Source of the DNA: Eublepharis macularius
Lineage: Eukaryota > Chordata > Lepidosauria > Squamata > Eublepharidae
Length of the DNA stretch: 64,000 bases
NCBI RefSeq assembly: GCF_028583425.1
Contig: NC_072801.1
Span: 17,504,001-17,568,000, forward strand
Direction of reading: 5' to 3'
Shown here one piece after another: positions 2,505 through 62,257 of the stretch (position 1 is the first letter of the stretch; each line of letters opens with the position of its first letter). The notes under the pieces are model-generated. The model searched no databases, was not told where the DNA came from, and saw only the letters and a program-made list of their open reading frames with translations. A program made the translations under genes and the position numbers.

Positions 2505-2925
2505 GAGGAGATAGCCATGTTAGTCTGTAGTAGCAAAATAGTAAAGAGTACGGTAGCTCCTTTAAGACTAACCAACTTTATTGTAGCATAAGCTTTCGAG
2601 AACCACAGCTCTCTTCGTCAGATGCATCTTCAGATGCATCTGACGAAGAGAGCTGTGGTTGTCGAAAGCTTATGCTACAATACAGTTGGTTAGTCTTAAA
2701 TGCATCTGACGAAGAGAGCTGTGGTTTTCGAAAGCTTATGCTACAATAAAGTTGGTTAGTCTTAAATGCATCTGACGAAGAGAGCTGTGGTTCTCGAAAG
2801 CTTATGCTACAATACAGTTGGTTAGTCTTAAATGCATCTGACGAAGAGAGCTGTGGCTCTCGAAAGCTTATGCTACAATAAAGTTGGTTAGTCTTAAAGG
2901 GGCTACTGGAGTTTCAAGGCTAATC
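2505..2925 (+). repeat. Head-to-head plus tandem array of a hammerhead-like 66-bp unit (PLE-like)
   Basis: One inverted unit (about 2505-2632) faces four direct units whose CTGACGA cores start at 2640, 2706, 2772 and 2838, an exact 66-bp period. Each unit reads CTGACGA-A-GAGAGC-tgtg-(stem partner)-GAAA, then GCTTATGCTACAAT and AAGTTGGTTAGTCTTAAA. The core and order match the hammerhead ribozyme scheme known in Penelope-like elements. The inverted unit continues to the end CCAGAGG seen also at 39793. PLE assignment is inferred. Confidence 0.7.
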
Positions 2926-3240
2926 CAGCAGAACTCTTCTTATGTATGCAGAAGGCTATAGAGCACACATTCCCTTACAAACACCAAGTGATCCATTGGC
3001 AAACATTCCGTATTTGTTAGCAAAGGATGATGGGCTGAAACACTGTAATTCCCGCTCACGAACACCTAAAGGCACAATTGTGCCTGTTGGTTTGTGACTA
3101 TCACAATTTTTCTGTACTGTGCTAAGTGACATTACAAACAGCTTACAGCTGTGGGAGTATCTTCATTACTACTTCCAATGATTTGTTTCATCGCTGTTTC
3201 CACTACAAAGAAGAGACTGGCTTATACATAAGGTTTCTAC

Positions 3241-3732
3241 TTGCACACATTGCATACATTGGCAAAGCACCTTATGTATTTATGTCATAATGCACAAGAA
3301 AATAAATTCTCGCCTTGGTTCAAATTAATTAAGCTGGACCGTACTAGGGCACAATACCTAATCAAGATCTCAGTTAGCAAACTACGTGTAGCCTTCACCT
3401 CAGTCCGCTTTCAGTCCATGAAAACAGCCATGCTCGAAGGCCGTTATTCCAAGACTCCAGCCGCTCAGCGCCTTTGCCCGTGTGGTGGCTCAGAGCCAGA
3501 AGACTTGTGTCACTATTTACTACACTGCCCACTCTACACATCCCCCAGAAAGAATTTTTTAAGTCCAATCCTAGCTAGTTTAGGTTTCAGACAAGATAAT
3601 GAAAACATTGTTGCTGCATTAGCAGATGTGGACCCAGAGACCTCGTACTGGGCTGCTCTTTTTGCCCTTGCAGCAGGGAAAATCCGAGAGAAGGTCGTGG
3701 CAGCACAGGGCTGTCCACAGGCTATAGTGTAA
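3241..3732 (+). CDS. LINE ORF2 C-terminal fragment (intact 163-codon frame)
   Basis: The translated frame carries a Cys/His cluster typical of the C-terminus of many non-LTR retrotransposon ORF2 proteins: C79-x-C81, C90, H91-x4-C96 in RLCPCGGSEPEDLCHYLLHC. Upstream is the basic segment LDRTRAQYLIKISVSKLRVA and downstream a helical tail. The reverse transcriptase is absent, so this is only the 3' end of a 5'-truncated element. The frame reaches its own stop without interruption, which suggests a fairly recent insertion. The clade (L2, CR1, R4-like or other) cannot be settled here. Confidence 0.7.
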   Translation: MHTLHTLAKHLMYLCHNAQENKFSPWFKLIKLDRTRAQYLIKISVSKLRVAFTSVRFQSMKTAMLEGRYSKTPAAQRLCPCGGSEPEDLCHYLLHCPLYTSPRKNFLSPILASLGFRQDNENIVAALADVDPETSYWAALFALAAGKIREKVVAAQGCPQAIV

Positions 3733-3858
3733 TTCCTATAGTGTTTTATCAAGTTTGTACTGTATATTTTACCTGCATCGTCGCTCATATTTTTGTTACT
3801 GATTTATTGTTTGTAACGGCCTTTGGCCTAATGCAATAAACCTTACCTACCTACCTAT
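3733..3858 (+). mobile_element. LINE 3' UTR and tail
   Basis: Follows the ORF2 fragment and ends with TTTGGCCTAATGCAATAAAC and a short (TACC)n tail, the usual short tandem 3' tail of a LINE. The 71-bp insertion at 53156-53226 looks like the tail of a related family. Confidence 0.6.
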
Positions 3859-4147
3859 GTCGTAATGCATGGGCTAAAAATGAGCGATTACCTATTATGC
3901 TTTTTGCTATGCTGATTTTTGGAAGCCATAACTACAGTTTGAGAGAGAGAGAGAGGCACCTGCCGTTTCCTCCAGTGCTTTATCAAGTAACAGCCACTCA
4001 AAGAGGTTTAAATAGCACCAAAGTTGCTTCTTCCAAGAGAGACTGGCTCACCTATTCGTTTCTATATCATACTTGGAACAAGAGGGTTCAAGGAGCTCTC
4101 ACTCTGAGGCACTGAAGATATTCTGGATTCATATTGATAGTTGCAGG
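3859..4147. other. Unassigned, possibly older LINE remnant
   Basis: The segment AGAGAGACTGGCTCACC resembles AGAAGAGACTGGCTTATA found just upstream of the LINE fragment (about 3210), so this may be a second decayed LINE copy. Nothing firmer can be said. Confidence 0.3.
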
Positions 4148-4408
4148 CAGGGCTTTTTTTTCTGGGAAAAGAGGTGGTGGAACTCAGTGGGTTTTCCTCG
4201 GTGAAAATGGTCACATGGCCGGTGGCCCCGCCCCCTGATCTCCAGACAGAGGGGAGTTTAGATTGCCCTCCGCACCGCGCTGCGGCACGGAGGGCAATCT
4301 AATTTCCCCTCTGTCTGGAGATCAGGGGGCAGGGCCACCGGCCATGTGACCATTTTCAAGAGGTTCCGGAACTCCGGACCCCCACGTTCCAGCTGAAAAA
4401 AAGCCCTG
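4148..4408 (-). mobile_element. hAT foldback element, CAGGGCTTTTTTT family (copy 1)
   Basis: Ends CAGGGCTTTT...AAAAGCCCTG flanked by exact 8-bp duplications GTTGCAGG (4140-4147 and 4409-4416), diagnostic of hAT transposition. The interior is a long imperfect palindrome centred near 4275, with arms reading GGCCCCGCCCCCTGATCTCC and its complement. There is no transposase, so it is non-autonomous. Confidence 0.93.
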
Positions 4409-4416
4409 GTTGCAGG

Positions 4417-4600
4417 TGGGTAGCCATATTGGCCTGCAGTCGAACAGGAAGATCCGCCAACAGCACCTTAGAGACGAACTAGATTTCCAAGGTTTCACTA
4501 CCTGAAGAAGGGAGCTTTGAGTCGTGAAAGCTCACACCTTGGAAATGTATTTGGTCTTTAAGGTGCTGTTGGATTCACAGGTACAGCAACAGAGTCAAAA
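4417..4600 (+). repeat. PLE-like head-to-head unit with hammerhead-like core
   Basis: A reversed end (GGGTAGCCATATTGGCCTGC) faces a direct unit with CTGAAGA at 4502-4508 and GAAA at 4526-4529, followed by the shared 3' phrase GGTCTTTAAGGTGCTGTTGG. It has the same architecture as 2505-2925 with a different sequence. Confidence 0.6.
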
Positions 4601-6089
4601 TAGATCAGACTCCTAAGTGATAGCCTGTCATCAAAATGTATAGCCGCTAGAAGCAAAACAATGGGATACACAACCTACTTGGATGTCCTGAACTGATGTA
4701 ATCCTTCATCTCTTTGCTGATATGATGTATTAGGTGACTTGATCTGGGTGAAGGCAGTGGATACAAAGCTTCACGAGCAGGCAAAAAAAAAAAAACCTGC
4801 GGAAAACGCTCATTCAAGAGAAGGAAAACAAATTCTGAAATCTCAGAATTGATGCCAGCCCTAGGCTTCCAAAGCAATTGTAAACTCTGGGAATTGCCGC
4901 AGTAGCCATGGGAACCAAAACCCAGGGACACGGCTGGGCCTTTATAATTGTCAGCAAACTTAGCCTTCTGAGTCCACATGACAGGCTAAGAAAAAGAGAG
5001 TCGCTGGAAAGATGATGAATAGAGTCATTGGAAATGGACACCAAGGGACTCCCAGTATGAGTTATGGAAGGACAATGCCTTGGAAAGTGTGTGTGTGTGT
5101 GTGGGGGATCATTTTGAAATGAGAAGGAAAGGCAAGACGTATCAGCTGGGGGGGGGGTCTGGCTTTGTGGGAAGGATGTGCCGCCCAGGATGCATGCGAG
5201 GGAATAGGAAAGAACGAGAGTGTGAGCATCATGATAGCTCCCAAGTGCTCTCCCCCCCCCACCTTTGTCTTGTCTGCCACATTACACTGGGGAGACAGCA
5301 GTGCATTTCTTTTACTCTTCCTCCTCCAAAGATACCTTTTATTGCCCACTGGAGCTGTAAAAGTCTGAGCTGGCATGCAGATATTGGGGAAAGGTGCAGC
5401 TATTGGGGAGGGCAGGGCAAGGGGGAGAAAATCAACAGCAGGGTTTTTTTTAACCAAATTTGGAAGATGCGGAGGGACGGGAGTTTCATGTCCTGCCTCC
5501 CTGGTATGTTGAGGTTTCCAGGAGCTTTGGCAGAGAAATAAACCTTCCCCACTGTTCACTCCTGGCGGGAATTCCAGCAATCTTCTCCATTTGTCATGAG
5601 ACGGAATATCCATGGTGTTTACAGCTACGGAAGCGTGGGGCGTGGGGGGGGGGGATGAGGAAGATGAGCAGAGCACACTGTGTGTGTGAAAATGAAAAAA
5701 GAAAGAAAGCCTTCCAGTGCAATGTTTGGAGTCTCTTTTTAAAAGCATTTTAAGACTGTTTAGGATTGTATTTCTAGATAGCACCTCTGCAGAGGCTTAA
5801 GGTAGTTCTCTGAAACTCTACCAGGAGAAGAAGGGTCCTCCCTTAACCATTCCAGATAAGGCCTTCGGTGCTGCTTTTTAGTAAAGCAAAGAGATCTAAA
5901 TATTATCTTCATTGGCTGGCAATTTCTGCCAATTCCCTATTGCTGCTGCTGCTCCCTGATCCCCTGAAATTTTCATTCCGGATAGTCATAGGTCTCCAGG
6001 AGAAACATAAAGGACGAAGTGGAGATGTGCAGTGGGCGGAGACAGCATAAATCACAGCCTCCCTACCCCCCCCCAAGTAAATTAAACGT
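4601..6089. other. Unassigned with simple repeats
   Basis: Contains an A run near 4784-4796, (TG)n at about 5088-5102, and G, C or T homopolymers near 5150, 5252, 5435 and 5646. The 240-codon minus frame at 5062-5784 is low complexity (Ser/Pro/His rich) and not supported as a gene. Confidence 0.4.
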
Positions 6090-6320
6090 GGGTGGATGCA
6101 AGCCAGTGTTTTACTTAGATGGATGAACAGGATGGACTTCACCTGGTGCCTAAACGTGGATAACATAGATGCCAGGTGAATTTGGGCACTGAGGGAAAGA
6201 GTTTCAAAGCAAAGGCGCCACCACAGAAAAGGTGCTGCATCCAGTAACCACCTACCTAATTTCTGACAGCAGGGGTACAATAGAAGGGTCTTGGCAGATG
6301 GTATTAATTGCCATGCCAAT
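6090..6320 (-). mobile_element. L2-like LINE 3' UTR fragment
   Basis: Resembles the reverse strand of the L2/CR1-type 3' region also seen at 39345-39780, with phrases such as GTTTCAAAGCAAAGGCGCCACCA and AGAAAAGGTGCTGCATCC. The match is recalled, not aligned. Confidence 0.4.
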
Positions 6321-6461
6321 TTCTACAAGAGAGACCCATATGTGAAATGATCTGGTCCCAAGCTATTTTGTATCAGACCATTTCCACCTGAGAGTATTTG
6401 GATGAACGTACAGTAGCTGTGTTTCAAGGGCTGCGTCCCTAATATGGAAATCTGAATAGAT

Positions 6462-6830
6462 CAGAAGTGGGCACGAACTGGGAAAATACTGAAGCGTGCG
6501 GTTCGTGGTTCATTGCATTTCATGAACCATGAACTTTCGCAAACCTGCCCCAGTTCGTGAACTGGTTCATTTGGTTCGTGAAAATGTCACTTCCGGGGCA
6601 GTGGAAAGTCACTTCTGGGGCTGCAGAAAGGCCCCCCCGTTGCCTAAGAAACTGATTGATTGGCGCTGGGCTGTCTGCAGTGATGAACCAAAAAATGAAC
6701 CAAATGAACCAGTCTAAATTTCATGGTGGTTCGTCAGAAATGGGTTCTGACAAACCGCTGGTTCGTGAACCACAAACCAGCCCAGTTCGTGACAAACTTT
6801 GGTTTGTATTTTGGTTCATGCCCATCTCTA
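6462..6830. mobile_element. Non-autonomous DNA transposon with GGGCACGAAC ends
   Basis: The left end AGAAGTGGGCACGAACTGGG and the reverse complement of the right end (AGAGATGGGCATGAACCAAA) form terminal inverted repeats. The interior is rich in GGTTCGTGAA / TTCACGAACC inverted motifs. No clean target duplication is visible, so the superfamily (hAT likely) is unproven. Confidence 0.65.
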
Positions 6831-8016
6831 ATCAGGATCCTACCCGTAATGCAAACGTAATTTACATATTGGCTTATGAAAGCATTCAGTGCGACAGACT
6901 CTCTCTTAAACATAAAAAAGGTCATTTATTACCCTTAGTTGCAAACTAGTATATTTTTAGCCAGATTATAACAAAATTACCACAGGATATCCTCCCCTCC
7001 AAAGAAATATTAATACAAGGAAGTGTTTTAGAAAATTGTATATACATAACGTTTTAAAATTATGTAACATAAAATGGTTTAAAATAATACAGTTTGTTTA
7101 TAGAAGCAGATCTGACTATCATATATACATACTAACGTCAGAATTAATACCATATTTCCTATGTTCAAATCTAAACAAATTGAAAATCCAGTTTGTATCA
7201 TTTGGTGACCTGGTCCCAGGTATAAAAGTACTTATTCCTTTTAGCATTTTAAACTTTATAAAGGTTTGGATGAGTTGCATTTTTGCAGTTCCCATTTTTC
7301 CTGTTTTTTTCTTTGCCATTAGAGCTACCCAGCTTTAACCATTTTCAATGATTCGATACTAGGGAAAAGTGTCAGCAAATCATCATTACTGGATGATCAC
7401 CATGGAATGCAATGCACAAATGAATGGATTATATGTAGACCAAGACGCCTCAATGCAAATCTAGGCAAGAGTGATTTCTCCTTTCATGGAGAATGTTTCA
7501 GTCAATACATGTCAATACACAGTGGAACAAGCAAAACAGAAATGATTAATATAGGAACTGAACATTATATTTGTAAAGCTTGCCTCGAAGATAAACTTGC
7601 ATGTAAAGTGGGGGACATGGCAATTCCAACTACCCACTTGATAATCCGAACATATAAATCATCTTGACAATGAGGTCATATCATGCATCCAAGATTAAGA
7701 GGCTAATTACAGCAGGCAATAATCCATTGGCATGAGTTACTCTGATTTGCTGCTGCTCGTCACTTAAAACTGAAATAGGGGGATGCAGGAAGGCAGTCCC
7801 GTCCACCCCAAATCAGCAGGGCTTTCTCACTGCACTGCTACGAAAGGGAAATGGAGCCAGTGCACTCATGGAGCCACCTGAGACAGAAACGCAAACCCCA
7901 TGCATGCCCAGGTCGTAGTCGAGGTTGTAATGAGCATGTCAATTCCCCCAGGGAACCTTAGCCACATAGGTGAGTCAATAATGCCATCTTTTGAGCCGAC
8001 CTAACCCACTATTAGG
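6831..8016. other. Unassigned, largely single-copy-looking
   Basis: No repeat family recognised. AT-rich and without long homopolymers at 6850-7340. The frame at 7407-7667 is not recognised. Confidence 0.35.
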
Positions 8017-8310
8017 AGAGCCCCGTGGTGCAGAGTGGTAAGCGGCAGTACTGCAGCCCAAGCTCTGCTCACGACCTGAGTTTGATCCCGGCGGAAGCCA
8101 GCTCAAAGTTGACTTAGCCTTCCATCCTTCCGAGGTCGGTAAAATGAGTACCCAGTTGCCTGGGGGTAAAGTGTAGATGACTGGGGAAGGCAATGGCAAA
8201 CCACCCCGTAAAAAGTCTGCCAAGAAAATGTCATGATGCGACGTCCCCCCCCCCCATGGGTCAGTAATGACTCGGTGCTTGCACATGGGATTACCTTGAC
8301 CTTTACCTAA
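8017..8310 (+). mobile_element. Sauria-type SINE (tRNA head, Bov-B-like tail)
   Basis: The tRNA-like head GAGCCCCGTGGTGCAGAGTGG has an A box, followed by a B box (GAGTTTGATCCC). The Sauria SINE body follows (CTTCCGAGGTCGGTAAAATG, GGGAAGGCAATGGCAAACC, GGTCAGTAATGACTCGGTGC). It ends in TACCTTGACCTTTACCT, the Bov-B-like tail used for LINE-assisted mobilisation. Nearly full length, with little divergence. Confidence 0.92.
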
Positions 8311-8339
8311 CTCACTATTGTCTACTTTGACAGGTGGCA

Positions 8340-8720
8340 ACTCTGGCAGGTTTCAGGCATAGAAACACCAGCTATCTGAGATCCTTTTAAAACCAGAAAT
8401 GTTTTTGGGCAGAGGACCTCCTGAATGCTCTACCTCTGAATTATGGCTCCTCTCCATAATTTTTTAGTATGGTATATGTTCGACTAGGAGATTGTCTTAT
8501 GCAATCAGACCACTGAAATATCTAGCCCAGTATAGTCTACGCCACTATGCCAACCAGCAGCTTCTTGCCAAAGTCTGAGGCATAAATCTTTCCTATGCTT
8601 ACCATCCAATATCTTTTAAAATTGGAAATGCCAAGAATTGAATTTAGGACCTTCCACATGCAAAACATGTGTTCTGGTCACTTAGTTATGACTCCTACTC
8701 AACACAGGCAAATTCTACAG
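8340..8720 (-). mobile_element. Diverged tRNA-Ala-derived SINE copies
   Basis: Two degraded stretches read in reverse contain the phrases AGACCACTGAAATATCTAGCCC, GCCAAGAATTGAATTTAGGACC and CATGCAAAACATGTG, the counterparts of the better copy at 15379-15568. Confidence 0.5.
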
Positions 8721-9420
8721 GGTCAAGGTACCAGGAAACAGAAGAAAACTAATAAAAGGAAACAAGCAAAAATTTAATATTTCCTTAATATGTAATAAAA
8801 TATAACATTTCTTTTTCAAAAAATCATACTTAACTTCAATATATTAAAATGATAATTCAGACATGTCAGATCTGGAATGTCACAAAGCTAAGGGAATTAC
8901 AGAATATTACTAAATTAATATAGAGGAAAGAAGAAAAGGCCAGAAAACGCAATGAGAAAATGAGAAAGGAGTCAGAAGTTAACTATTCCTTCAAACTGAA
9001 GTGATGGAGCGTCAATGTTTTCAAACTCACTCAAAGACCAAAAGGCAGGCAATTTTCTTATTGTCCTGAAATGAAACACACTTTTCCCCTCTGATAAAAT
9101 CACAGTTCTCACCTTCATTTTAGATAATTCCTGTAACTCGGCAAATAAGGAAACAGCAATGCTCAAGTTTATGAAATGGATAATATTGGTCTTAGTTCCA
9201 TCCACCTCTTACCACTGTTGCTCTTTAATTTCCGATAAAGCTGATTGTTTGAATATTCTCAGACTAGCTTGATACTTGTGCTTCACTATGGAATTTAACT
9301 ACTTTAAATTCAGTTATGGTTTTTTTTGAGTTGGCAACTCTAGTGAACTTTTTAGGGGAAGACTGGGAGGTGCATATGACCTTAGGACACATTCAATGAC
9401 TTCCAATAGCAACTGCATAG
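8721..9420. other. Unassigned sequence
   Basis: AT-rich; no repeat family or exon recognised. Confidence 0.35.
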
Positions 9421-11574: not shown

Positions 11575-11665
11575 ACAGTAATACTGTCGAAGGCTTTCAC
11601 GGCCGGAGAACGATGGTTGTTGGGGGTTTTCCGGGCTGTATTGCCGTGGTCTTGGCATTGTAGTT

Positions 11666-11706
11666 CCTGACGTTTCGCCAGCAGCTGTGGCTGGCATCTT
11701 CAGAGG
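11666..11706 (-). ncRNA. Hammerhead-ribozyme-like motif (PLE end, inverted copy)
   Basis: Same motif on the minus strand: CTGAAGA is the complement of 11697-11703 and GAAA the complement of 11673-11676, with the same perfect six-bp stem II and CCT/AGG stem I. Confidence 0.6.
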
Positions 11707-11774
11707 TGTAACACCAAAAGACAGAGATCTCTCAGTGTCACAGTGTGGAAAAGATGTAGGTCATTTGTATCTAC

Positions 11775-12230
11775 TCAGGAGGGGTGGGGTTGAGCTGAGT
11801 CATTCTGTAAGAGTTTCCCAGGGTGTGGAATGCTAATGGCGGGAGGCTTCACTGTATCCTGAGGAGGGTCTTTTGCATATGGATTGGTGCTTGATGTGCT
11901 AATCTTCTCTGCAGGGCTATTGTCGGGTGTGGAGTGTTTTGTTGGCCTGGTGTTTTTCAGAACTGGAGCCCATGCTCTGTTCATTCTTAAGGTTTCTTCT
12001 TTCCTGTTGAAGTTTTGCTTATGCTTGTGAATTTCAATGGCTTCCCTGTGCAGTCTGACAAAGTAGTTGGAAGTGTTGTCCAGTATTTTGGTGTCCTGGA
12101 ATAAGATACTGTGCCCTGTTTGAGTTAGGCTATGTTCAGCCACTGCTGATTTTTCAGGCTGTCCAAGTCTGCAGTGTCTTTCATGTTCTTTTATTCTTGT
12201 CTGGATGCTACGCTTTGTGGTCCTGAGAGA
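11775..12230 (-). pseudogene. PLE GIY-YIG endonuclease C-terminal coding remnant
   Basis: The minus-strand frame reads RIKEHERHCRLGQPEKSAVA, then EHSLTQTGHSILFQDTKIL, then YFVRLHREAIEIHKHKQNFN and RKEETLRMNRAWAPVLK. This follows the PLE endonuclease pattern: R-x3-H, then SAVAEH...GH, then REAIEI-x-KH-x2-NFNR. The frame is open for at least 122 codons from the ATG at 12143 and stays open upstream in the same frame to about 12230. A Ser/Pro/Thr-rich tail follows. Only the C-terminal third of the domain is present, because of 5' truncation. Confidence 0.85.
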
Positions 12231-12251
12231 TCTCTGTCTTTTGGTGTTATA

Positions 12252-12292
12252 CCTCTGAAGATGCCAGCCACAGCTGCTGGCGAAACGTCAGG
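12252..12292 (+). ncRNA. Hammerhead-ribozyme-like motif (PLE end, direct copy)
   Basis: Stem I CCT/AGG (12252-12254 with 12290-12292). CTGAAGA at 12255-12261, one extra T at 12262. Six-bp stem II GCCAGC/GCTGGC (63-68 with 76-81), GAAA at 12282-12285, then CG and TC. All core blocks occur in hammerhead order. The extra base before stem II departs from the canonical core, so activity is unproven. Confidence 0.6.
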
Positions 12293-12347
12293 AACTACAA
12301 TGCCAAGACCACGGCAATACAGCCCGGAAAACCCCCAACAACCAACA

Positions 12348-13902: not shown

Positions 13903-14702
13903 CGAGAGAGGAATCCACTCAAAAAGATAGCGAGAAAGGTGAAAACACACGAGTAGGAAGTAATAGTAAATCAATGAATACAAAATAATCAAAACAGTAT
14001 ATTGGAGTGTAGAACTCTCGATATAATCAAGGAATCACAAAAGTAGCTGTAACAATAAATCATACATCGAAGTCAAAACTTAGTGCACCTATGAAAATCA
14101 CAAGACAAATTGTAGTACTCCGGGCTTTTTTTTCAGCTGGAATGCGGTGGAATGGAGTTCCAGAACCTCTTGAAAATGGTCACATGGCTGGTGGCCACGC
14201 CCCACGGAGGGCACTCTAAGCTCCCCTCTGTCTGGAGATCAGGGGGCGGGGCCACCAGCCATGTGATCATTTTCACCAAGGGCAACCCACTGAGTTCCAC
14301 CACCAGTTTTCCCAGAAAAAAAGCCCTGGTACATAGTACAGTAAGGAAGACATCCAACAGGAAAGTATCCTAAATAAAGTCAATAATTTTTATATTCTTT
14401 CTTTCCAGGTGGAGCTGTAACCGGTGGGATGCAGTAGACAGAGCCCATAATGCCCAACATGCAGTGCTGGCTTGATTCTGCTGTTTCGTATCGACAACTT
14501 CCTCAGGGGCAAGATGTATCCACCACAACAGTCACAAAATCTTGTGATTTTCATAGGTGCACTAAGTTTTGACTTCGATGTATGATTTATTGTTACAGCT
14601 ACTTTTATGATTCCTTGATTATATCGAGAGTTCTACACTTCAATATACTGTTTTGATTATTTTGTATTCATTGATTTACTATTACTTCCTACTCATGTGA
14701 AG
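13903..14702 (-). mobile_element. Young PLE-like insertion with 170-bp inverted arms
   Basis: Flanked by an exact 15-bp duplication TACTTTACCCAGCAA (13888-13902 and 14703-14717). The arms, about 13940-14107 and 14530-14698, are inverted copies with about three differences in 165 bp. The central part, read on the minus strand, has CCCCTGAGGAAGTTGTCGAT and ACGAAACAGC, a hammerhead-like CTGAGGA...GAAA order. A hAT element is inserted at 14120-14328. PLE assignment (Neptune-like) is inferred. Confidence 0.65.
14120..14328 (+). mobile_element. hAT foldback element, CAGGGCTTTTTTT family (copy 2), nested
   Basis: Starts with the slightly decayed end CCGGGCTTTTTTTTCAGC and ends AAAAAAAGCCCTG. It is shorter than other copies because part of the palindrome centre is missing. 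No exact target duplication is left. It lies inside the PLE-like insertion, so it is younger than that element. Confidence 0.85.
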
Positions 14703-14985
14703 TACTTTACCCAGCAATCGAGGGAATGTACATAAAAAGCATGTGACATCAAGCCATAGCCTGAAATTATTACATGAAAACTGAGCTTTCCAGGAAAATG
14801 CTAAAAAGCAGCATCTAATGCCTGACAAGCGGATCATAAAAGATTAAAAAATGTTGACCAAAAAAGCATTCAGGACTTCCAGATATCAGCTTGCTGGAGC
14901 CCAAACACAACCAGGCATTTGAAGAGTCAGCCTCGGTGAGGAAAAATATCCTTAACTTCTATAATCTGCCCTGGAATCTTCTTGT

Positions 14986-15249
14986 CAGGGCTTTTTTTTC
15001 AGCTGGAATGCGGGGGAACGGAGTTCCGGAACCTCTTGAAAATGGTCACATGGCTGGTGGCCCCGCCCCCTGATCTCCAGACAGAGGGGAGTTGAGATTG
15101 CCCTCCGCACCACTGGAGCAGCGCGGAGGGCAATCTAAACTCCCCTCTGCCTGGAGATCAGGGGGCGGGGCCACCAGTCATGTGACCATATTCTCTGAGG
15201 ACGACCCACTGAGTTCCACCACCTCTTTTCCCAGAAAAAAAAAGCCCTG
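14986..15249 (+). mobile_element. hAT foldback element, CAGGGCTTTTTTT family (copy 3)
   Basis: Complete ends with the exact 8-bp duplication CTTCTTGT (14978-14985 and 15250-15257). Palindrome centre at about 15116. No coding capacity for a transposase. Confidence 0.93.
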
Positions 15250-15378
15250 CTTCTTGTCATTATCTGCCGACAGTCACATTTTAAATATGACCTTGTAGGA
15301 AAGAACACAGACTTCTGAAGGAAGGAAGAGCATAGCAATTGTAGCGCAGAATAATTTTTCATGGCACAGAAGGCCACA

Positions 15379-27029: not shown

Positions 27030-27183
27030 CTCAGAAACCAGTGGGAGAAGGATTTTAATCTTCCAGGATATTCTGCTGCTAACCTAAGAGCAGCAGATCT
27101 TCTACAGAGAAGCTTCAAAGGGAGATTAGAATGGGAGGCTGTGGAACTAGAATCCATTAACAAGTTCAGGACAACGGACCTCC
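27030..27183 (+). mobile_element. PLE-like fragment
   Basis: Phrases GAAGCTTCAAAGGGAGATTAG and CATTAACAAGTTCAGGAC belong to the same element as 46480-46860, where the reverse-strand counterpart TCTAATCTCCCTTTGAAATT is present. Confidence 0.5.
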
Positions 27184-28184: not shown

Positions 28185-28370
28185 GGACTCCAACTCGTCC
28201 TTCTTGGTAAAAACCCTCCCACCTTCTCACTTGGATATAAAGACTGATCTTCATTCTCATTTGTATCTAATGAAGTGAGCTTTGACTCATGAAAGCTTAC
28301 AAACTTGGAAAATTCTGTTGGTCTCTAAGGTGCTACTGTTCTGTTACAGACTAACCCACCTTTAACTTTT
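28185..28370 (+). repeat. PLE-like unit with decayed hammerhead-like core
   Basis: CTAATGA-A-GTGAGC-tttga-CTCAT-GAAA at about 28267-28294, then TTGGTCTCTAAGGTGCTACTG and ACAGACTAACCCACC. One core base differs from CTGATGA. Confidence 0.55.
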
Positions 28371-28396
28371 GTTCAAACAAGTGACTTCCTAATACC

Positions 28397-28644
28397 CAGG
28401 GCTTTTTTTCAGCTGGAACGCAGGGGAATGGAGTTCTGGAACCTCTTGAAAATGGTCACATGGCTGGTGGCCCCGTCCCCTGATCTCCAGACAGAGGGGA
28501 GTTGAGATTGCCCAGCGGCGCGGAGGGCAATCTCAACTCCCCTCTGTCTGGAGATCAGGGGGCGGGGCCACCAGCCATGTGACCATTTTCTCCTAGGGCA
28601 ACCCACTGAGTTCCACCACCTCTTTTTCCAGAAAAAAAGTCCTG
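28397..28644 (+). mobile_element. hAT foldback element, CAGGGCTTTTTTT family (copy 4)
   Basis: Both ends present. Flanks CTAATACC (28389-28396) and CTAATACT (28645-28652) agree at 7 of 8. Palindromic centre at about 28516. Confidence 0.92.
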
Positions 28645-31184
28645 CTAATACTATACTGAAACATCTATTGACACCAGTGTTGGGATTTGGGGCCCATGCC
28701 TGTGAACTGGCAGCATTAGCTGTGTGGATTTTTCAAAATAATGTTCCTACAAGATGGTAGTCAAGGCAGAAACTAAGGATTTTGGGGAGGGAACTAGAGA
28801 AGGGAAGATTGCAACTTGACTCCAGAGGGTTTCAGTGAAGCCTTCAGGAAATAGTAGGCACTTTGCAGGAGCTGTAAAGTACCAGCTGACTAGGGACATA
28901 AGCCAAAAAATGAGAGCATAAGGGCTCTTAGCCTGTGGTTTTTAAGCCCTGGCATCACAGCCCAAACTAGCAAATAGAAAATCTGAGGGGGGGGGAGTAT
29001 ATGCCATGCCTATTTTGTTATCAAGCATTGCACTTATTTTAGTGGTTTAACAACATAACATAAAAAAGCTGTACTATCAAGTGTATTTATTGAATTTAAA
29101 AGCATAAATGCCCTCATTTTCCACTTGGACCTGTCCAATCCCAAAAAGTGGCAGTACATGAAAGCCCTTGTGCACAACACTCATAGAACATCATTTTTTT
29201 TCCACTGAAAAGCATTAAAATCACAAATACAAGAAGAGACACTTTTGCACCAAGTTTCACTCATATCAAAGCAACGGGACTGGAAGTCGAATTTAACAAA
29301 GGAGTCGTTTCAACAGGCTGATGTGAATTTCGTTTACAGCCCATATCCTGAGACGTCTGTACTTGCAAGACACGAGCATGTAGAAAAGAGGCAGGCAGAG
29401 CTTCTGCCTGCCTTAATTACCTATTTAACTTTTAAACAACTCATGGTCAATCTGTTTTGAGGAATAGAAGGGAACCACCCACCCACCCCAATGAAACAGA
29501 AGAATTGCAAAGCACTCACATGGCTTATGGAAGATTCTTTTCAAAAAGGGACCCGTCACATGACAAAAGGCACTGTATCAAACTTCACATTTCATAATAG
29601 TTGATGGAAAGCCACCATATCTCCCTCTTGTACTCCAGGGGCAAGAAAGGAAGATATATCCGTCATCGCTGTGCTTGCCATGAGTCTCAGCCGAATATCT
29701 GAGAATTTTCAGTCTCTGATGCTCTCTGCCACTGATGTCTCTAGAACGGTGCTGTCACTCAGCATTAAAAAGCTGGCTTATGCTCAGCATTTGTGTTGGC
29801 CTACTGACCCTCAAGCTGCAAGAACGTCCCACCCCATCCTAACAACAGGGAAGTCCACACAGGCCAACTCTTGTACAGCTTGCTAGTACTCCCTACCTCC
29901 CACCAATTACTTGTGCTTCATAGATATTAACGTTACATTGCATATTTAAACACACACACAGACAGTCTGCTTTCCACATGTGTAGCTAAAAGCTGAACTA
30001 TCTCAGAAGTGTTTTTTTTTTCCCAGTGGGTATACAGGGTAATAGGTGGTATGCAATATGTTAAACAGCCATTTTTAAATTTCTGATTGCTGCTAGAGCT
30101 GGGGCTAGTTTTTGTCACCAGCACAACCATGTCAGGTTTGGGGAGCGGAATGGGGGGCCTGTACTGTTTCAGAAGACAGGTAGGAGGAATGGAGGTCAAT
30201 AAAAACCCTGACACACTAGTTTTCTCTGTGCTGGTAGAAAAAAACACAAAGGCAAGAGCTCGCCGGCCACAACAGTAGCCTTTACAAAAATATGATAAAT
30301 GTGTCCCATTATACCTACAAGTGAACAGTAGCAGCCTGTTAAATGGAAGCTGTGATAAAAACCTGTTTTGTTAATCTGAGAAAGACCCTGAGAATTAAAA
30401 CCACTCCTTCAAATGAAAGATTTTCAGCTGCTTTAATGGAGTAAACTTCACACAATGCAAACCGGCGTAGCCATCAATGGCAGAGAAGACACAGAGGGCT
30501 CAGAACTCCATCACCTGTTGTGCTAACAGCATGGACAGAAAAACCACAGGAAGAAGAGAGGAATCTGACTCCATCTCCATTAAAAGAAATTTCCAAGCCT
30601 TCTTTGCTAAGTGCAAATCACAATTCCTGGGGTTTTCCTCCAGCAACCTCAAGATAAAGAAACTGGGAATCCCGCAAAAGAGATGAACAATAGGTGCTCC
30701 ACTCGTCCACCCATGGAGTGACATGGCAGCCCCCCCTCTGACCCTCTTTGCCTTTTAGCAACCCCACAGCCATAGTGCAGCCCCTCCATTGCCCCCCTCC
30801 CCCGGATCTGCAGCCTTCCTCCTCCTCCCAACTACCTGAACAAGTTCAGGCCACAGAAAAGGGGTCTGAGGACAAGTGACAGGAACGGGAGAATCTGTGC
30901 TTGTGGGGCTATCAGAGAAAGGAAGGTTATGTGCAACAGTAATAATGACTGGCTATGGCAGGCAGATCTAAAGGTGTGCCAACAGAATTTCTGTTGATCA
31001 TACAGATTCCAAAAAATGGGTTCTCCTATTAGGAAAAGAAGTTGTATACGCTCTCTCTCTCAGCGCTCTTATTGTTTAAGAACTTGAGGGCAGGAGTGTG
31101 CTTTCCATTGCTATGGCATTTCTCCTCTCCCATTTCCCTGGCTGGGAAGAGTAATAATGGTGCTGAAATTTTAAACAGCAATAA
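28645..31184. other. Unassigned, largely repeat-poor intron
   Basis: No transposon recognised with confidence. Homopolymers lie near 28988, 29200, 30010 and 30732. Frames in this interval lack domain features. Confidence 0.35.
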
Positions 31185-39792: not shown

Positions 39793-39915
39793 CCCAGAGG
39801 AGTTAGCCGAGTTAGTCTGTAGTTGCAAAATAGAAAAAGAGTCCAGTAGCACCTTTCAGACTAACCAACTTTACTGTAGCAAAAGCTTTCGAGAATCACA
39901 GTTCTCTTTGTCAGA
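39793..39915 (-). repeat. Compact 123-bp hammerhead-like retroposed unit with 11-bp target duplication
   Basis: The exact duplication TTGTCTACTGA flanks it (39782-39792 and 39916-39926). On the minus strand it starts TCTGACAAAGAGAACTGTGA, then CTCGAAAGC (hammerhead-like core), GTTGGTTAGTCTGAAAGGTG, and ends ACAGACTAACTCGGC...CTCCTCTGGG. The core has CTGACAA, one base off CTGANGA. Confidence 0.75.
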
Positions 39916-40214
39916 TTGTCTACTGAGTAAGAGACTCCCATATCAGATTCTGCGGGCTCCTAGTGGCAGTTCATCACTGCTTGGTGGAAAGCTGCATTAC
40001 CTCTCCTGTGGTTGCACAGTTGAGATTATGCCAGCATCTGTGCCCACGTGGTGAGTTGTACAGGGATGAAGGCACCCAGATCCTACCATTAGAGGCCACA
40101 GCTGAAGCCCCTTGGCACAGCTAACTAACGACTCAAGCGCAAAAGTGCTTGAGCAATTTGTTAGCTATCAGCTCAACTATAACCTCAAGTATATGAGGGG
40201 CTTACCTTGTTAGC

Positions 40215-41205
40215 AGTCCAACACTCCCCCGCGCTGAAAGGGCAGTTTATGAATATGGTGATATCATAAATCCCTCTCCTCATGTGCTTCAAGCACATGG
40301 CATGTTGCCTGGCTAGTCAGAACATTTCCTGATCCGACTGGAAAGGAAAATTACTGGAGCATGAGTCATGAGGAGCCCCATACCCTGGAGATGTGAAAAG
40401 ATGTAAAGACACAAGAGGTCTTTCAGGAGTTCCTGAGTTAATCTTATCCACATCCTGCCGAACTTCTCTCCCTTCCTCCTTCCCAATCAGAGTTAATTGG
40501 GGACCTGATAACTCGTCCCTTCTGCTAATCACGGGGCATCACTTTTCTAACTTTTAGTTACGCCTAGGAAGGTATAATCAAGCCTTTCCCACTTTATTTT
40601 CTCACCTCCAGAGACAGACATTAAGCTATTGTTTTGGGGGCAGAAGACGTGATGCTGCTGCCCCAGGGTATGTACCACAGTATAATTGGACTGCCCTGCT
40701 ATACGTGTGTGTGTTCTGGGACCCATCCACACACCCTCAGATCATGAATGAGCCGTCTTCTTGTTGCGAAGCACTGGTCACTCAGCCACTACTCTCCACG
40801 GATGTCCACTGTCTCCTAGACTGGTAAATATCACCCAACCCTAATCTCTCCCCCTTTTCCTCTCTATTTTCTGGTTAGCTATGTGTGTATGTTGTGTGTG
40901 ATTTCATGTGTTTGCTTTCACTGTCCCTTTAATAAAACCATTCCTGTTGAACTCTTGCCTGGTTCTTTCAGAGTTTTCTCTAAGGGAATGATTCTGGTAT
41001 ACATTGGCGGAAATCTTGCGAGTTCCTCGCACGGCTTCTCCTTGTTTGCTAATTCCCCCAACTCACAAGGAGGCTCCCCCATTTGGGTAACAACCTCACG
41101 CTCCTTATCTGTGGTAGGTGGACTATACAGGTTATTTTCAGGATTAGCAAGTCAACTAAGTGCTTTGAGCAGACAGGAAAGGCATAAATATTTGTTATGA
41201 CCAGT
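40215..41205 (+). mobile_element. Possible solo LTR (fossil LTR retroelement)
   Basis: About 1 kb of sequence with an LTR-like order: promoter-like region, a polyadenylation signal AATAAA near 40931, then a U5-like segment. No internal coding region or second LTR found. Ends and family are uncertain; it is broken or solo. Confidence 0.3.
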
Positions 41206-42087
41206 GTTGCAATGTTGATTGTAAACTGGTAGGGAGTAAGTCACCATGAAAGAACTGAGTTTCAATTCAAATAAGGAGCTCAGGAATCAGGATCATAGTC
41301 TAGGCTTTAATTTGTTCAAAACCAACACCCAACTTTTAAAAAGTAAAGTGCTAGCAGCAGATTTTTTTTCCAGTCACTCTCCTGTGAGACTATTTCTAAC
41401 CACGACTTTTTCTTTGCCTCAAAATAACAGATGCCTTCCAGGTCTGTTGTAGTTCTCAAACTAAATTTGACATCTTCTGTGCAATAAGGAAGTGATGCCA
41501 ATTTTGTCTTCTGTTCTTTAATCCCAGCCAATGTTAAAAATTATTCTTGGCTGGAGTTTGTTCTACAATTCTAATTTTAGAAAATGGCCTCCTAAAAACT
41601 CCTCCCCCACCAAGTAATTGCCCATAAATTTTGCTGTAAGCCATTTCCCTTTAAAAAAAAAAAGAAAGACTGGTTTGCTTAGTTACTCAGGGCAAGGGAA
41701 ATACTAAGGTAACAGGGAGCTCCTATCTTAGCAAATAACTTCACTCAACTGTTTTGGAAGGCATTTATAATAATTAAAAACCCTGTGTTCTAATAAGAAC
41801 CAATTTACTCTCTAATAGCAGTTCTGCTCCCTTTTGGATAAATGTGCTCTGCTCTGCTGTTAACTTAAAAGCTCCCCTGAAGTTTTGGGGAATATATTTG
41901 GGCTTTGGATTAACTTCTTCTAATTAACCCTAAAGGAAAAAGTTCATTCTGCATGTATTGTTTTTGTACTCAAGAATGTTAAGTTGGAGAAATCAGAAAC
42001 ACCCAAAATACTGAATCAGCGGAGAGGGTTCCTAAGTCCAAAGAATCCCAAACTCTGACTGTCATGGGCAGGGCCTGGTGATGGCTC
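41206..42087. other. Unassigned intron sequence
   Basis: AT-rich; no repeat recognised. Confidence 0.35.
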
Positions 42088-42094
42088 ATTGTGG

Positions 42095-42800
42095 AACAGT
42101 GTAGTGTAGAGCAGAATTTCCCAACATGGTGCCTGTGGGTGCCACACGACATTCACAGACCCCTTTCCTGATGCCTGCCAAGTTTTTAGAAAGTGAACAG
42201 GGCCAGGTGAGCCTTTTTCCCAGCAGAGTTTCTGATTGGCCATTGGAAATCTGATTGGCTATGCAGATTTTTAACAACTTGCTTTGGCAGGAGCTGCTTC
42301 CATCCACACCGCAAGGAGCTTCACAGTATAACTGAAGATAGGCTGTGTATATGCAAGAAAATATTTTTATACAATATGCTCATTTGAAAAGGCATCCTGT
42401 TTAGCAGAGCTTCTGCCTGAAACATTGAAGACTTATTATTAGAGTTCTGCATGACTTCCCTTCCTGAGATTTTGTGGTTAGCTCCGCCTCTTGTGGAAGC
42501 CATTTTGTGGGTGTGCCCACTATCCAGTGCCAGAATTCCAAAGGTGCCTGCAGGCTCAAAAAAGTTGGAGACCCCCTGGGGTAGAGGTTAGAGTATCAGA
42601 CTAGCACCTGAGAAACTCATGTTTGAATCCCCACTTGGCCATGAAGCCCACTGGATAATCTTCAGGCACATTCTTTCCACTTAATCCACTTGCTTGTGTT
42701 GTTGTGAGGATAAAAAGGCGAAAGAAAGAAAAACATACATTGCCACCCTCAGCAATCTTGGTGGTAAAGAAGGCCTTGAATATAAGTTGCTTCAGTTTCA
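42095..42800 (+). mobile_element. MIR-like SINE interrupted in its A box by hAT
   Basis: The head AGTGTAGTGTAGAG is split by a hAT element and resumes as GGGTAGAGGTTAGAGTATC, then GTTTGAATCCCCACTTGG (B box) and GTTGTGAGGATAAAAAGG. Confidence 0.7.
42112..42578. mobile_element. hAT element nested in SINE
   Basis: CAGAATTTCCCAACATGGTG to AGTTGGAGACCCCCTG, duplication GTGTAGAG / GGGTAGAG (7 of 8; 42104-42111 and 42579-42586). 467 bp, no transposase. Confidence 0.87.
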
Positions 42801-43097
42801 GTCTAAATGTTTTCCAAAAACACTGCAAGATTTGGGCCAGTTTGTGATGGGTTGGTTTAAACAGGTATAGTCTAATTTTGTTTCTAATATCTCAGTAAAA
42901 GGCAGCAAATTTATATGGCTCAATGCAATTAACTTTTAGGATCTTTTAACTATTGCTTGTTGTTTCCGGAGTTACCATTGTATGACATTCTGTTGCTTGA
43001 TCTGATAAATTTTAATCCATTTTTGATTACCAATTTCTATTCTGAGTCTTCTCATTTTGATGATTTTTACTATATTGCTTTTCTCTAATTTTAGCTA

Positions 43098-43455
43098 ACC
43101 CTTACAAGAAGCAGCCTTAAACTGAGTCAGACAGTTAGTCTATCAATGGCTGATTCTGCACACGTTGGATAATACACTTTCAATGCACTTTATCAATCGT
43201 TTGAGGTGGATTTTTGTTCCGTACACAAAAAAAATCCGTTCCAAATGACCTATGAAGAGGATTGGAAGTGCATTATCCAACGTGTGCGGAATCACTCAAA
43301 GTCGCTATTGTCTGCTCTGACAGGAAATGGCTTTTCAGGGTTTCAAAAAGAGGACAGTCTTTCACAGCCCTTACTAACTGGAGATGTTAAGGTTTTAACC
43401 TAGGATATTATGCAGGCAAAGCAGGTGCTCTGCCACTGTGCCACGGCCTCTCCCC
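43098..43455 (-). mobile_element. tRNA-Ala-derived SINE with nested MITE
   Basis: The reverse strand carries the tRNA head (GAGGCCGTGGCACAGTGGCA with GGTTAAAACC in the B-box region). The body ends at AAACTGAGTCAGACAGTTAG. A palindromic MITE interrupts it at about 43147-43295. Confidence 0.7.
43147..43295. mobile_element. Palindromic MITE, GATTCTGCACACG ends (second copy)
   Basis: Matches 26494-26643 almost base for base: GATTCTGCACACGTTGGATA and AACGTGTGCGGAATCA at the ends, AAAAAAATCC at the centre. Confidence 0.82.
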
Positions 43456-43458
43456 ACA

Positions 43459-43645
43459 TGAAGCTACCTTCCACTGAGTCAGCCCAGTGATTTATTAAGG
43501 TCAATATTGTATATTCTGAAGTGACTCTCAGAGGTCTTAGGCAGAAATCTGTCACATCACCTACTACACGATCTTTTAAACTAGGGATTGTACCTGGGAT
43601 TTTGTATATGCAAAGCAGATGCATCATAGTTGCCTCTTTAAAGTT
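43459..43645 (-). mobile_element. tRNA-Ala-derived SINE, second adjacent copy
   Basis: Begins GAAGCTACCTTCCACTGAG and ends with a degraded tRNA head (GATTGTACCTGGGATTTTG, ATGCAAAGCAGATGC). Same orientation as its neighbour. Confidence 0.65.
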
Positions 43646-43790
43646 ACTTTGAACAGGGCACATGGAAGAGGAGCTAACAAACTGCCCTAAATAAATACTT
43701 GATGGGAATGATACAGAGGCTGATTGCTAGAAGCAACTTCATTTCATTAAGTAAGAACTTGGGCACCCATGAAAACTCCTGAAACTCTTA

Positions 43791-44026
43791 GGGCCAAACT
43801 ACAAGTGACGCCTGACACAGGTTGGACACTTGTCAGCTTCCCTCAACATTTGATGGGAAATGTAGGCAGCTTGGCAGAATGTTGGACAAGTGACAGTTGA
43901 AAAGTCCATTGGACGGCAGTCAGAGAGCCAAGCTGCAAGACCAGGACGCCTACATTTCCCATCAGAACTTGAGGGAAGCGGACAAGTGTGTCCAACCTGT
44001 GTCAGGCGTCACTTGTAGCTTGGCCC
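43791..44026. mobile_element. Foldback MITE, GGGCCAAGCTACAAGTGACG family, 236 bp
   Basis: GGGCCAAACTACAAGTGACG at the left and CGTCACTTGTAGCTTGGCCC at the right. Inner inverted segments GACACAGGTTGGACACTTGT and CCCATCAGAACTTGAGGG extend the palindrome around a less symmetric centre. Confidence 0.85.
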
Positions 44027-45209
44027 TCAGACTCAGCATTCCAAACAATCTAGGAATAATAGCACTGGTCTCCCTTACAGAGCTGTGGTAAGGACAACGG
44101 AGATAAATATCATGGTTTGAAAAGAAAAGTGCTACATTGTTAGTGCTAACATGAAATGTTTTTATTGTACAGAGAAGACAGCAACTTGGTGGAGGAAAAT
44201 AAGACTTAAAAACTGACACAGTTTGGGAGAGGAGTGGAAAATGCTGATATGACCAGTACAAAAATATTTAAACACTGACAGTCCCTTCACTCTCTCTAGG
44301 CTTATAATCAAATCATCTGAGGCAAAGAAGAGGGAGTTTCTGATCATATTTTCCTCATTTCTGTCTTCAGAAATAGATATTCCCTTATTGGCTAGGGACC
44401 TCAATCTTTGCTAATAGATTTCAAGAGCCACCTGTGACCATAACAGACCGACCACATATCAGGAGTGCTCCACTTTGAGAGAGAGACAGAGGATGGCAGT
44501 TGCTTGTTACCAAGGAAACCAGATCACTGCAGTAAAGACCTAAAACTTCAAGCGGTTACGTGTTCTACTTCGGAAAAAATTCTCATTTTAACCTGTTCCT
44601 AGGCTGCTGAAACATTAAGGACATCATAGCAATGACAAGAATGGTCCCCCACCCAAACTAAAATCCCAAGTTAACAGTCACTGCTGTTAGTAAAAAAAAA
44701 AGAGAGAGAACGAGAGAGAGAGAGCGCAAACGTTAATTGTTATACTAGTTCTATGGCAATAGCTCATTATCTAGTCCTGGGGAATGAAAATAAAAGCACT
44801 TTGTTGGTATGTGGAAGGAGCATACAGCCCTAGAGAGTTTTGATGGAACAGGCACATAACAGTAGCTACTTATTGATTTTTTTTAAAAAAAACCTGAAAA
44901 CATATCTCCCCCCCCCATGTTTAAAATAAGAACTGTCATGTTTGCAAATTAAAAGCCCTAGTTTTTTGGGGGGAGGGTTTGCAGGTGGGGCAAAACAGAG
45001 TTCCAGCCAAGGCAACAACCTCAGCCTGGTGGTGGGGCATTTGTTCTCCATCTTCAACCTTTACCTGCCCAATTTAGCGGAAACAACCAAGCCAGGGAAA
45101 TATTATGACAAGTGTTACTGATGAGCGAAGGCCAGTGATCCCTTGAGAAGGGAATCTGCCGTCATAACTACCTTCTTTGGTTATTGAAAGAGAAAGCGAG
45201 AGGCAAGCA
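44027..45209. other. Unassigned, with (GA)n stretch
   Basis: AG-rich microsatellite at about 44700-44725; T and A runs near 44876-44891. No transposon recognised. Confidence 0.35.
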
Positions 45210-45455
45210 AGCAAGCAAGTGCGGAACTCTCATCTGGAGAATCGGGTTTGATTCCCCCCTCCTCCACTTGAAGCCAGCTGGGTGACCTTGGGTCAGTCAC
45301 AGCTTCTCAGAGCTCTCTCAGCCCCACCCACCTCACAGGGTGATTGTTGTTGTGGGAATAATAGTAACATACTTTGTAATCCGCTCTGAGTGGGTGTTAA
45401 GTCATCCCGAAGGGCGGTATATAAATCAAATGTTATTTATTATCATTATCATTAA
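45210..45455 (+). mobile_element. tRNA-derived L2-tailed SINE (MIR-like)
   Basis: CTCATCTGGAGAATCGGGTT, CTTGAAGCCAGCTGGGTGAC, GTCAGTCACAGCTTCTC, CCGCTCTGAGTGGGTGTTAA and the tail GGGCGGTATATAAATC followed by (TTAT)n-like sequence. Confidence 0.9.
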
Positions 45456-46385
45456 GCATGTCTCTTTAATGACCTGGCATGTTTGCCTAGTACCTACACA
45501 AACGTACCAGCCAAGAAGGGCCACTTGTGAGCAGCTGGTGTGCTCTTGCGGGCTCTTGCCTTTTTCACTTTTGAAACAACTGAGGGGAGGGGAGCATGAG
45601 GAGCTCCACTGGACGCAGGGTGGTGTTGGTTGCGTGCTCTGAAAGCTTAAGAGTTAAAAAGTGGAAGACCCATCCGTTACTTTCTGTATTCTGGAAAACG
45701 AGTTTAAAATGATAGCAATGTAAAAAAAAAAATCAAACTACAACAATGGGAATAAATTTTCACAAGGAAGATTTTGGCAGAAGAGGGAGACTCGAGTGGA
45801 ACACACTTTGAAGCAGGCCCCAACCTATAGAGTTTTTGGCAGCTGGGTCCTTATTTGCTTTCCTGCCCAGTGTTCAGAATGCAATCAGAGTATGAAAATG
45901 GCTGCGGTGGGAGGAGTTGCTAGGGAGAGGAACCCCCCTCCCGTCCTCCTCCTCACTTTTAAGCTGAAGTGAAGGATGAGAGACTGCAGCCTTGCCTGGG
46001 AAGGGAAGGAGGCGGGCACCATCACACATGCACTCTCTGACCACAATTCCACGCAGTATCACACTTTGTGGTAAGCAGCTTCCCAGTTTGTTAATTAGGG
46101 ACATATCCTTCAATCCTAATGAATATATTTTAGGTAACATTTAAATTGCCTCCCCCCCAAAAAAACAGTTTAAAGAACCTCACATTGTGTTAGGGGGCTG
46201 AATATACCCATAACACATCTCCTAGATTTCTATCAATGACTAGGTTGAAAGAGAAGCAAGCATTACATCCACCAGGGGGACAGGTTTTCTGTCCGAACTC
46301 TGCTGTCCCATTACCAGGAGTCCTGCTTCGGCCTTCTCTGGGAACACCCCCACCCCCCAGTTTGGGAAGAAGTGAACTGGGACTC
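45456..46385. other. Unassigned intron sequence
   Basis: No repeat recognised. Confidence 0.35.
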
Positions 46386-46862
46386 CCTTAGAAAAAAGCA
46401 AGAGTCCAGTAGCACCTATAAGACTAACAAAATTTTTGGTAGGGTATGAGCTTTCATGAGCCATAGCTCACTTCTTCAGATACAGCTAGAATGTAAGACC
46501 ATCTGTCCTTATATCTTGGAGAGTGGAGTGATTGCAGAAGCCGAACGATAATAGCCGGGGAATGGCAACGGCAGGTGTGATGGGATAGGGTGGGGTATGC
46601 AGAGGGGTGGTGGATGTGGAGAAATCAGCATTGGTAATGAGACAGAAAGCCAATGTCTGTGTTCAGTCCATGTGGTTGCATCGTCTTGAGCTTCATGATC
46701 AACTGCAATTCAGCAGTCTCTGTCTCTTTCTAATCTCCCTTTGAAATTCCTCTGCAGAATAACTGCTACTTTTAGGTCAGCAACTGAATGTCCTGGAAGG
46801 CTAAAATGTCCGCCCACTGATTTTTGAATGTTTTAGTTTCTGATGTTGAACTGATGTCTTAT
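46386..46862 (-). mobile_element. PLE-like 3' region with hammerhead-like core
   Basis: The minus strand ends CTGAAGA-A-GTGAGC-tatg-GCTCAT-GAAA (complement of 46452-46479), then TTTTGTTAGTCTTATAGGTG and CTACTGGACTCTTGC. Upstream is decayed PLE-like coding sequence to about 46862. The stem II sequence differs from other families but still pairs. Confidence 0.65.
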
Positions 46863-62249: not shown

Positions 62250-62257
62250 GTCAGAGC

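Follow-up and report, generated by a model that had tools for sequence, protein, structure and literature searches.

Two Penelope-like element lineages of Eublepharis macularius carry candidate minimal hammerhead ribozymes with one extra base before stem II

We analysed a window of 64,000 nucleotides (nt) from the genome of Eublepharis macularius, and all positions below follow the numbering of this window. An original prediction, made from the letters of the window, had reported a hammerhead-ribozyme-like core in at least four unrelated-looking repeat families. As judged from sequence, these motifs are very probably minimal type I hammerhead ribozymes of the pseudo-long terminal repeat (pseudo-LTR) of Penelope-like elements (PLEs), the Poseidon-like one lying at the start of an open reading frame (ORF). 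The families are not unrelated: the copies fall by alignment in two distantly related PLE lineages, referred to here as the AGCU lineage and the Poseidon-like lineage. Their PLE identity follows from the PLE coding sequence that flanks both, and one of them lies in the register of the Anolis Poseidon motif, so the proposed link between hammerheads and Penelope elements is borne out. The window motifs are mostly of a known kind; a fixed one-base insertion and an overlap with a start codon are their more interesting details.

The boxes reported at 2640, 2706, 2772, 2838, 4502, and 12255 on the plus strand and at 2615, 11697, and 46473 on the minus strand are all present. Among the weaker sites, those at 28267 and 39911 (39914 in the list below) are decayed members by homology, and the one at 14500 (14506, minus strand) is unsupported. 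The genome searched comprises 2.24 Gb in 72 contigs, and the L-numbered loci and contig C1 belong to it. A 288-kb set was composed of the window, 20 round-number 10-kb stretches, and eight loci selected for the exact core. The motif model R1 was built from 16 rows, ten of them from the 20 round-number stretches. The features of the window are as follows.

11775-12287, minus strand: 3' part of a Poseidon-like PLE ORF, 5'-truncated, a 170-aa frame with 89% identity to residues 725-884 of the L029 frame.
11659-11711, minus strand (box 11703-11697): Poseidon-like candidate minimal hammerhead motif, CCT-CTGAAGA-T-GCCAGC/GCTGGC-GAAA-CG-U-C^AGG, in the register of the Anolis motif PAc.
12247-12299, plus strand (box 12255): inverted second Poseidon-like motif copy at the opposite end of the truncated element, within the inverted arms.
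2634-2898, plus strand (boxes 2640, 2706, 2772, 2838): array of four 66-nt units with one motif each, matched by R1.
2585-2627, minus strand (box 2621-2615): head-to-head partner of the 66-nt array, matched by R1.
4496-4538, plus strand (box 4502): diverged AGCU-lineage member with interrupted stem II, found by alignment and R1.
28261-28303, plus strand (box 28267): decayed AGCU-lineage motif reading CTAATGA, found by homology and R1.
39878-39920, minus strand (box 39914): decayed AGCU-lineage motif reading CTGACAA, found by homology and R1.
46443-46485, minus strand (box 46479-46473): AGCU-lineage motif with stem I GTAT/ATAC, found by R1 and folding.
46713-46832, minus strand: AGCU-lineage PLE ORF remnant from the GIY-YIG side, a 40-aa frame 228 nt upstream of the motif.
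27054-27137, plus strand: second remnant of the AGCU-lineage GIY-YIG-side ORF, with 61% identity over 28 aa.

The truncated Poseidon-like element has inverted arms of 129 nt (11614-11742 and 12216-12344, 97%). The junction of the 66-nt array with its head-to-head partner is the inverted repeat ATGCATCT-TC-AGATGCAT, and the copy at 4502 sits within an 11-bp inverted repeat (ATTTCCAAGGT/ACCTTGGAAAT). The 81-nt surroundings of the motif at 39914 have 89% identity to 2543-2623. The remnant at 27054-27137 lies 1.1 kb upstream of the motif at 28267, and the two may belong to one element.

A loose hammerhead pattern matched the window 11 times, whereas 100 shuffles averaged 2.4 matches and reached 7 at most. 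Seven of these matches are family members, and the remaining four (14506, 17319, 42332, and 44350) look like chance. We then applied a strict scan to the 288-kb set, requiring an exact CTGANGA box and at least four consecutive stem II pairs, with the spacings compared and three Markov shuffles as control. The scan resulted in 26 boxes with one extra base, three with none, and three with two, against two to three matches over all spacings per shuffle. The three zero-spacing and three two-base matches are second parses of a single array in L012. One of the 26 (in L017, with 4 bp and a 14-nt loop) is probably chance, so that 25 copies were accepted; the eight loci chosen for the exact core account for nine of the 26. 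By these counts, the extra base before stem II described in the original prediction is genuine and does not vary among the intact copies seen, being A in the AGCU lineage and T in the Poseidon-like one. Stem II is interrupted at 2640 and 4502, and both of these copies fail the four-pair test.

Canonical hammerheads without the extra base were rejected, as the 288 kb contained no exact box for them apart from alternative readings of a single array. Boxes with one mismatch at spacings of 0 to 3 stayed near shuffle level in the same set. Outside this genome, two motif patterns gave 0 matches in IMG/VR. The site at 14506 was likewise rejected: it has two base pairs beside its box by eye, no relative in the 288 kb, and no hammerhead fold, and it falls outside the 40 R1 matches up to E 1.

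The motif reads, in order, a stem I strand, CUGANGA, one extra base, stem II, GAAA, GC or CG, U, H, and the second stem I strand. The core of CUGANGA and GAAA with stem II between them is present, and it is lost in several older copies. Stem I is GCAT/ATGC or GTAT/ATAC in the AGCU lineage, with its strands directly outside CTGANGA and after GAAAGCTY, and CCT/AGG in the Poseidon-like lineage, where it encloses GAAACGTC. A stem III hairpin is absent, as only the palindromes AGCU or ACGU stand between A14 and H17. Most intact AGCU copies have U16.1 and H17 ahead of the predicted cut, as GCTT or GCTC, and all seven Poseidon-like copies have UC there; some copies lack them, such as the L015 array units reading GCTG. 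With a diminished stem III and PLE sequence beside it, the motif corresponds to the minimal hammerheads associated with PLEs.

The pairing was measured in alignment A6, which holds 30 rows, 28 of them distinct, from the AGCU lineage only. Array duplicates, truncated matches, L007, and the duplicates L002-L004 and L006 were excluded from it (L001-L004 and L006 are copies of a single duplicated segment with common flanks). Over ten named pairs in the 28 distinct rows, 80.4% of the cells were paired (stem I 76.8%, stem II 82.7%), compared with 28-45% when the partner was slid by one to three columns. The remark that most families lack a clear stem I is therefore not upheld, since 76.8% of the cells of the 4-bp stem I pair and the Poseidon-like lineage has CCT/AGG. 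The covariation score was 0.288 versus 0.007-0.146 for the slid structures, and it exceeded all 500 shuffles. Between subfamilies, both stems vary on both sides (UA/CG, UA/AU), and the Poseidon-like lineage supplies a third, different yet paired, stem set. A 15-row version of the analysis agreed with the 28-row version.

For the Poseidon-like lineage, pairwise searches joined the copies at 11703 (minus) and 12255 (plus) in a second lineage (GAAACGTCAGG) with matches in L016, L021, and L027. The 170-aa frame gave 64,749 first-look genome candidates, 150 of which were scored. L029, a locus with a long frame, holds a tandem element with two motifs 2,669 nt apart; its frame runs 884 aa from stop to stop and contains RVT_1 at E 1.9e-12. 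A GIY-YIG-like stretch of this frame was read from the letters by eye; Pfam did not call GIY-YIG in the frame, the nearest family being T5orf172 at 17.1 bits (cut-off 20), and a profile comparison of the stretch with the AGCU-lineage GIY-YIG region gave a probability of 37% and E 3.5e-4. The first ATG of the frame consists of A9, the extra T, and the base with which stem II opens, reading ATG (A9, U, G) CCAGCC and onward, and the frame from this motif-borne ATG is 863 aa long. The predicted cut falls 26 nt past the start codon, equal to the published PAc register, and another in-frame ATG stands 10 nt downstream of it. Between the box and the last base ahead of the cut, both included, six of the seven Poseidon-like motif copies agree letter for letter. 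The seventh, in L021, reads ACAU in place of ACGU, and one of the pair in L029 deviates immediately beyond the cut. L029 and L030 contain tandem or inverted partial copies with a pseudo-LTR, as PLEs do. In L030, inverted arms of 899 nt are 100% complementary, which makes this locus very young. The Poseidon-like motifs are best read as young and probably competent.

For the AGCU lineage, pairwise searches and a 20-row alignment (A1) united the copies at 2640-2838, 4502, 28267, 39914, and 46479 and the L012 subfamily in one superfamily, which shares GAAAGCTYAYRC and downstream GTTAGTCTTWAAGGTGCTACTGGA, with variation. A second alignment, A2, has 16 rows, four A1 rows with a cut upstream part or an array junction having been dropped. 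The 40-aa remnant at 46713-46832 gave 10,372 first-look genome candidates, and 150 were scored. The longest open frame among the candidates listed is 279 aa, and for this reason the lineage looks old and decayed. In seven of eight long-frame loci (L031-L038, chosen for long open frames among the 150 scored candidates rather than randomly), R1 found a motif on the strand of the GIY-YIG-side fragment, 222-240 nt downstream; L037 had no R1 match. Two of three scanned AGCU proteins reached the Pfam GIY-YIG cut-off of 22.6 (23.9 and 28.7), and the third was below it. BLASTP between the proteins of the two lineages gave 22% identity over 73 residues at E 0.15, and a match this weak places the two PLE lineages far apart. 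As to the suggestion that the motifs mark a variant or dead form, most AGCU-lineage copies are likely dead, whereas the Poseidon-like motif, with its core identical in six of seven copies and an Anolis relative that cleaves in vitro when its protein is present, is probably not.

Minimal type I PLE hammerheads are reportedly the subject of Cervera and De la Pena in 2014 and of Lunse et al. in 2017 ('cleave RNA as dimers'). De la Pena and Flores are said to have described in 2001 a hammerhead of the viroid CChMVd with an extra nucleotide between A9 and stem II, which differs from the window motifs in belonging to a viroid and in being of full size. In two reviews, PLE hammerheads are described as lacking helix III, occurring in tandem, possibly self-cleaving as dimers, and having an unknown role (PMC6155905, PMC7761336). 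The window motifs share with the minimal PLE hammerheads of these reviews the type I order, a diminished stem III, the PLE association, and tandem copies. The literature searched, available in part, makes no mention of an extra base in PLE motifs; the two main papers lie outside it, so this says little about novelty.

The closest comparison is with PAc, the hammerhead of Anolis carolinensis Poseidon, which is located at the junction of pseudo-LTR and ORF, with the ORF beginning at stem II (Frangieh et al. 2024, PMC11167929). Its C3 and G8 precede the start codon, and its cut lies 26 nt after the start codon (PMC11167929). The Poseidon-like window motif has the same register, in a different genome and a different element. 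Because the registers agree, the Anolis motif very probably carries the extra base too, as a count of the register rather than the letters indicates.

Several results weigh against a working hammerhead. The arrangement with no base between A9 and stem II does not occur in the 25 accepted copies, all of which have one and so deviate from the consensus hammerhead core. The Rfam hammerhead models gave no match in the window, at the gathering cut-off or at E<=10, and none in focused scans of the 66-nt array and of L029. The covariation proposed for stem II holds for the score but two of five measures were at shuffle level, in shuffles that ignore the kinship of the copies: the number of pairs changed on both sides was as high in 171 of the 500 shuffles, and that of further pair types in 167. 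In 17 of the 28 AGCU rows, the bases at the sixth position of stem II do not pair. Among nine folded sequences, two A copies and the D copy formed both stems with z of only -1.1 to -2.0, L012 formed both with z of 0.4, and the sole sequences below z -2 (28261 and 4452-4560) took other folds. The 39878 sequence folded stem II only, and 14470-14520 neither stem. In the Poseidon-like monomer (z -1.8), stem II forms and is lengthened by the extra U pairing with G12, and CUGA is predicted to pair with UCAG over the cut site, an inactive form. For PAc itself, in vitro cleavage occurs only with protein present, catalytic mutants insert unchanged, and RNA-seq has no ends at the cut site (PMC11167929).

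The last two of these results, together with the absence of an Rfam hammerhead match, the burial of CUGA in the predicted Poseidon-like monomer, and the fixation of the extra base in both lineages, would suit a motif that is no longer a ribozyme. It would then be a hammerhead descendant kept as a structural or translational PLE RNA element, such as a hairpin binding reverse transcriptase (RT) or another protein, or a start-codon context. We consider this unlikely, since C3, G5, G8, G12, U16.1, and H17, which matter for hammerhead catalysis, are kept in seven of seven aligned Poseidon-like copies. Moreover, the Anolis relative in the same register cleaves when protein is present and obeys the C3/G8 double-mutant test (PMC11167929). 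The recurrence might also reflect shared ancestry of a short repeat with chance stems and no selection on the fold. The copies are related, so that differences between subfamilies count many times, and the pair-count measures at shuffle level agree with such an origin. It is nevertheless very improbable, given the 28-45% pairing of slid structures against 80%, the changes on both sides of both stems between subfamilies, and the third paired set of the Poseidon-like lineage.

The arrays of the AGCU lineage invite another comparison. Animal non-LTR retrozymes are described as units of 170-400 nt with circular RNAs, tandem type I hammerheads, and no protein of their own (PMC7229834). Like them, the arrays here consist of candidate type I hammerheads in tandem and encode no protein; tandem motif units occur in the window, L012, and L015. 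That the arrays are retrozyme-like elements making tiny ribozyme circles is nonetheless scarcely credible: their units of 41, 65, and 66 nt are far under the retrozyme range, and the arrays are short and often head-to-head.

At L029:860-906, the Rfam model of the human Hovlinc ribozyme matched weakly (9.2 bits and E 9.9, against a gathering score of 42.3), and 20 of the 26 consensus letters printed are shared. In the fetched loci, 11 places reached at least 18 of the 26 letters, all of them PLE motif copies, against a background maximum of 17. About one such match is expected over 4,227 families by a rough estimate, which makes it only a lead towards a PLE origin of part of hovlinc, and it is probably chance.

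In the genome-wide search, a 19-base core pattern of the A subfamily gave 4,753 and 4,665 exact matches, 9,418 in all, and 0 in the reversed control. R1 at E<=0.01 gave 26 matches in 11 of the 20 round-number stretches (200 kb). A crude extrapolation puts the genome on the order of 290,000 copies, a figure to be read with the clustering of matches in arrays and pairs and with the partial training of R1 on these stretches. At L015:5056-5254 and L012:3621-3793, short arrays repeat the motif with periods of 41 and 65 nt, in addition to the 66-nt array of the window, and several neighbouring core-pattern matches on contig C1, among those listed, are spaced 41 bases apart.

Head-to-head inverted motif pairs are common (window 2565-2900, L001, L006, L008, L013, L015, and L026), and those of the A subfamily often centre on the stem I palindrome ATGCAT. 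With array units counted separately, 21 of 35 AGCU R1 matches are preceded within 200 nt by an inverted copy of the sequence downstream of them, and nine of 35 by a direct one. The 102 contig C1 places listed for the Poseidon-like ORF include 28 neighbour pairs less than 5 kb apart: 26 divergent, with starts 0.7-4.4 kb apart, two in tandem at 2,669 nt, and none convergent. The Anolis Poseidon protein cuts and extends both target strands, and on this ground the head-to-head copies fit two cDNAs primed from both strands and, as we infer, joined mid-way.

Some further repeats were observed in the window. An abundant repeat with large inverted arms (GGGCTTTTTTTCAGCTGGAACG...), outside the hammerhead families, occurs at 4155-4409, 14114-15250, 28390-28647, 57176-57442, and 61296-62252, among other places. 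An 85-nt inverted repeat at 35737-35821 matches microRNA (miRNA) models on both strands below their gathering scores. Rfam miRNA matches over 2552-2706, far below gathering scores, were rejected as a product of the inverted repeat there.

Under the hammerhead reading, RNA from tandem transcripts would cut itself after H17 (GCUU^, GCUC^, CGUC^). Cleavage of the monomer may be slow or nil, and it could be aided by a second copy, through a palindromic stem III common to two motifs, or by the protein that the element encodes, an effect measured for Anolis Poseidon. Cofolds of two monomers preferred long duplexes, which does not decide for or against a double-hammerhead dimer. Because A9, the extra U, and the opening base of stem II make up the start codon, uncut Poseidon-like RNA would be translatable. 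Cutting would take away this motif-borne AUG, and a second in-frame AUG would then stand 10 nt from the new 5' end; reverse transcription might begin in the 'tail' just downstream, carrying the motif to new sites. A more speculative extension, which we regard as improbable, is that two deeply diverged PLE lineages have in common a protein-gated hammerhead subclass, recognisable by the base fixed between A9 and stem II. The bare RNA, with CUGA buried in the predicted fold, would then remain uncut for translation and copying, the element's own protein, on binding near the tail, would switch cleavage on, and the Poseidon-like cut would reset the frame start to the second AUG 10 nt downstream.

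With the same insertion in a young tandem Poseidon-like element and in an older lineage, this genome would let one ask whether the insertion imposes protein dependence, and what cutting is for: translation, RNA processing, or no function at all. The Rfam models miss this motif, of which the genome has, by a rough count, some hundreds of thousands of copies.

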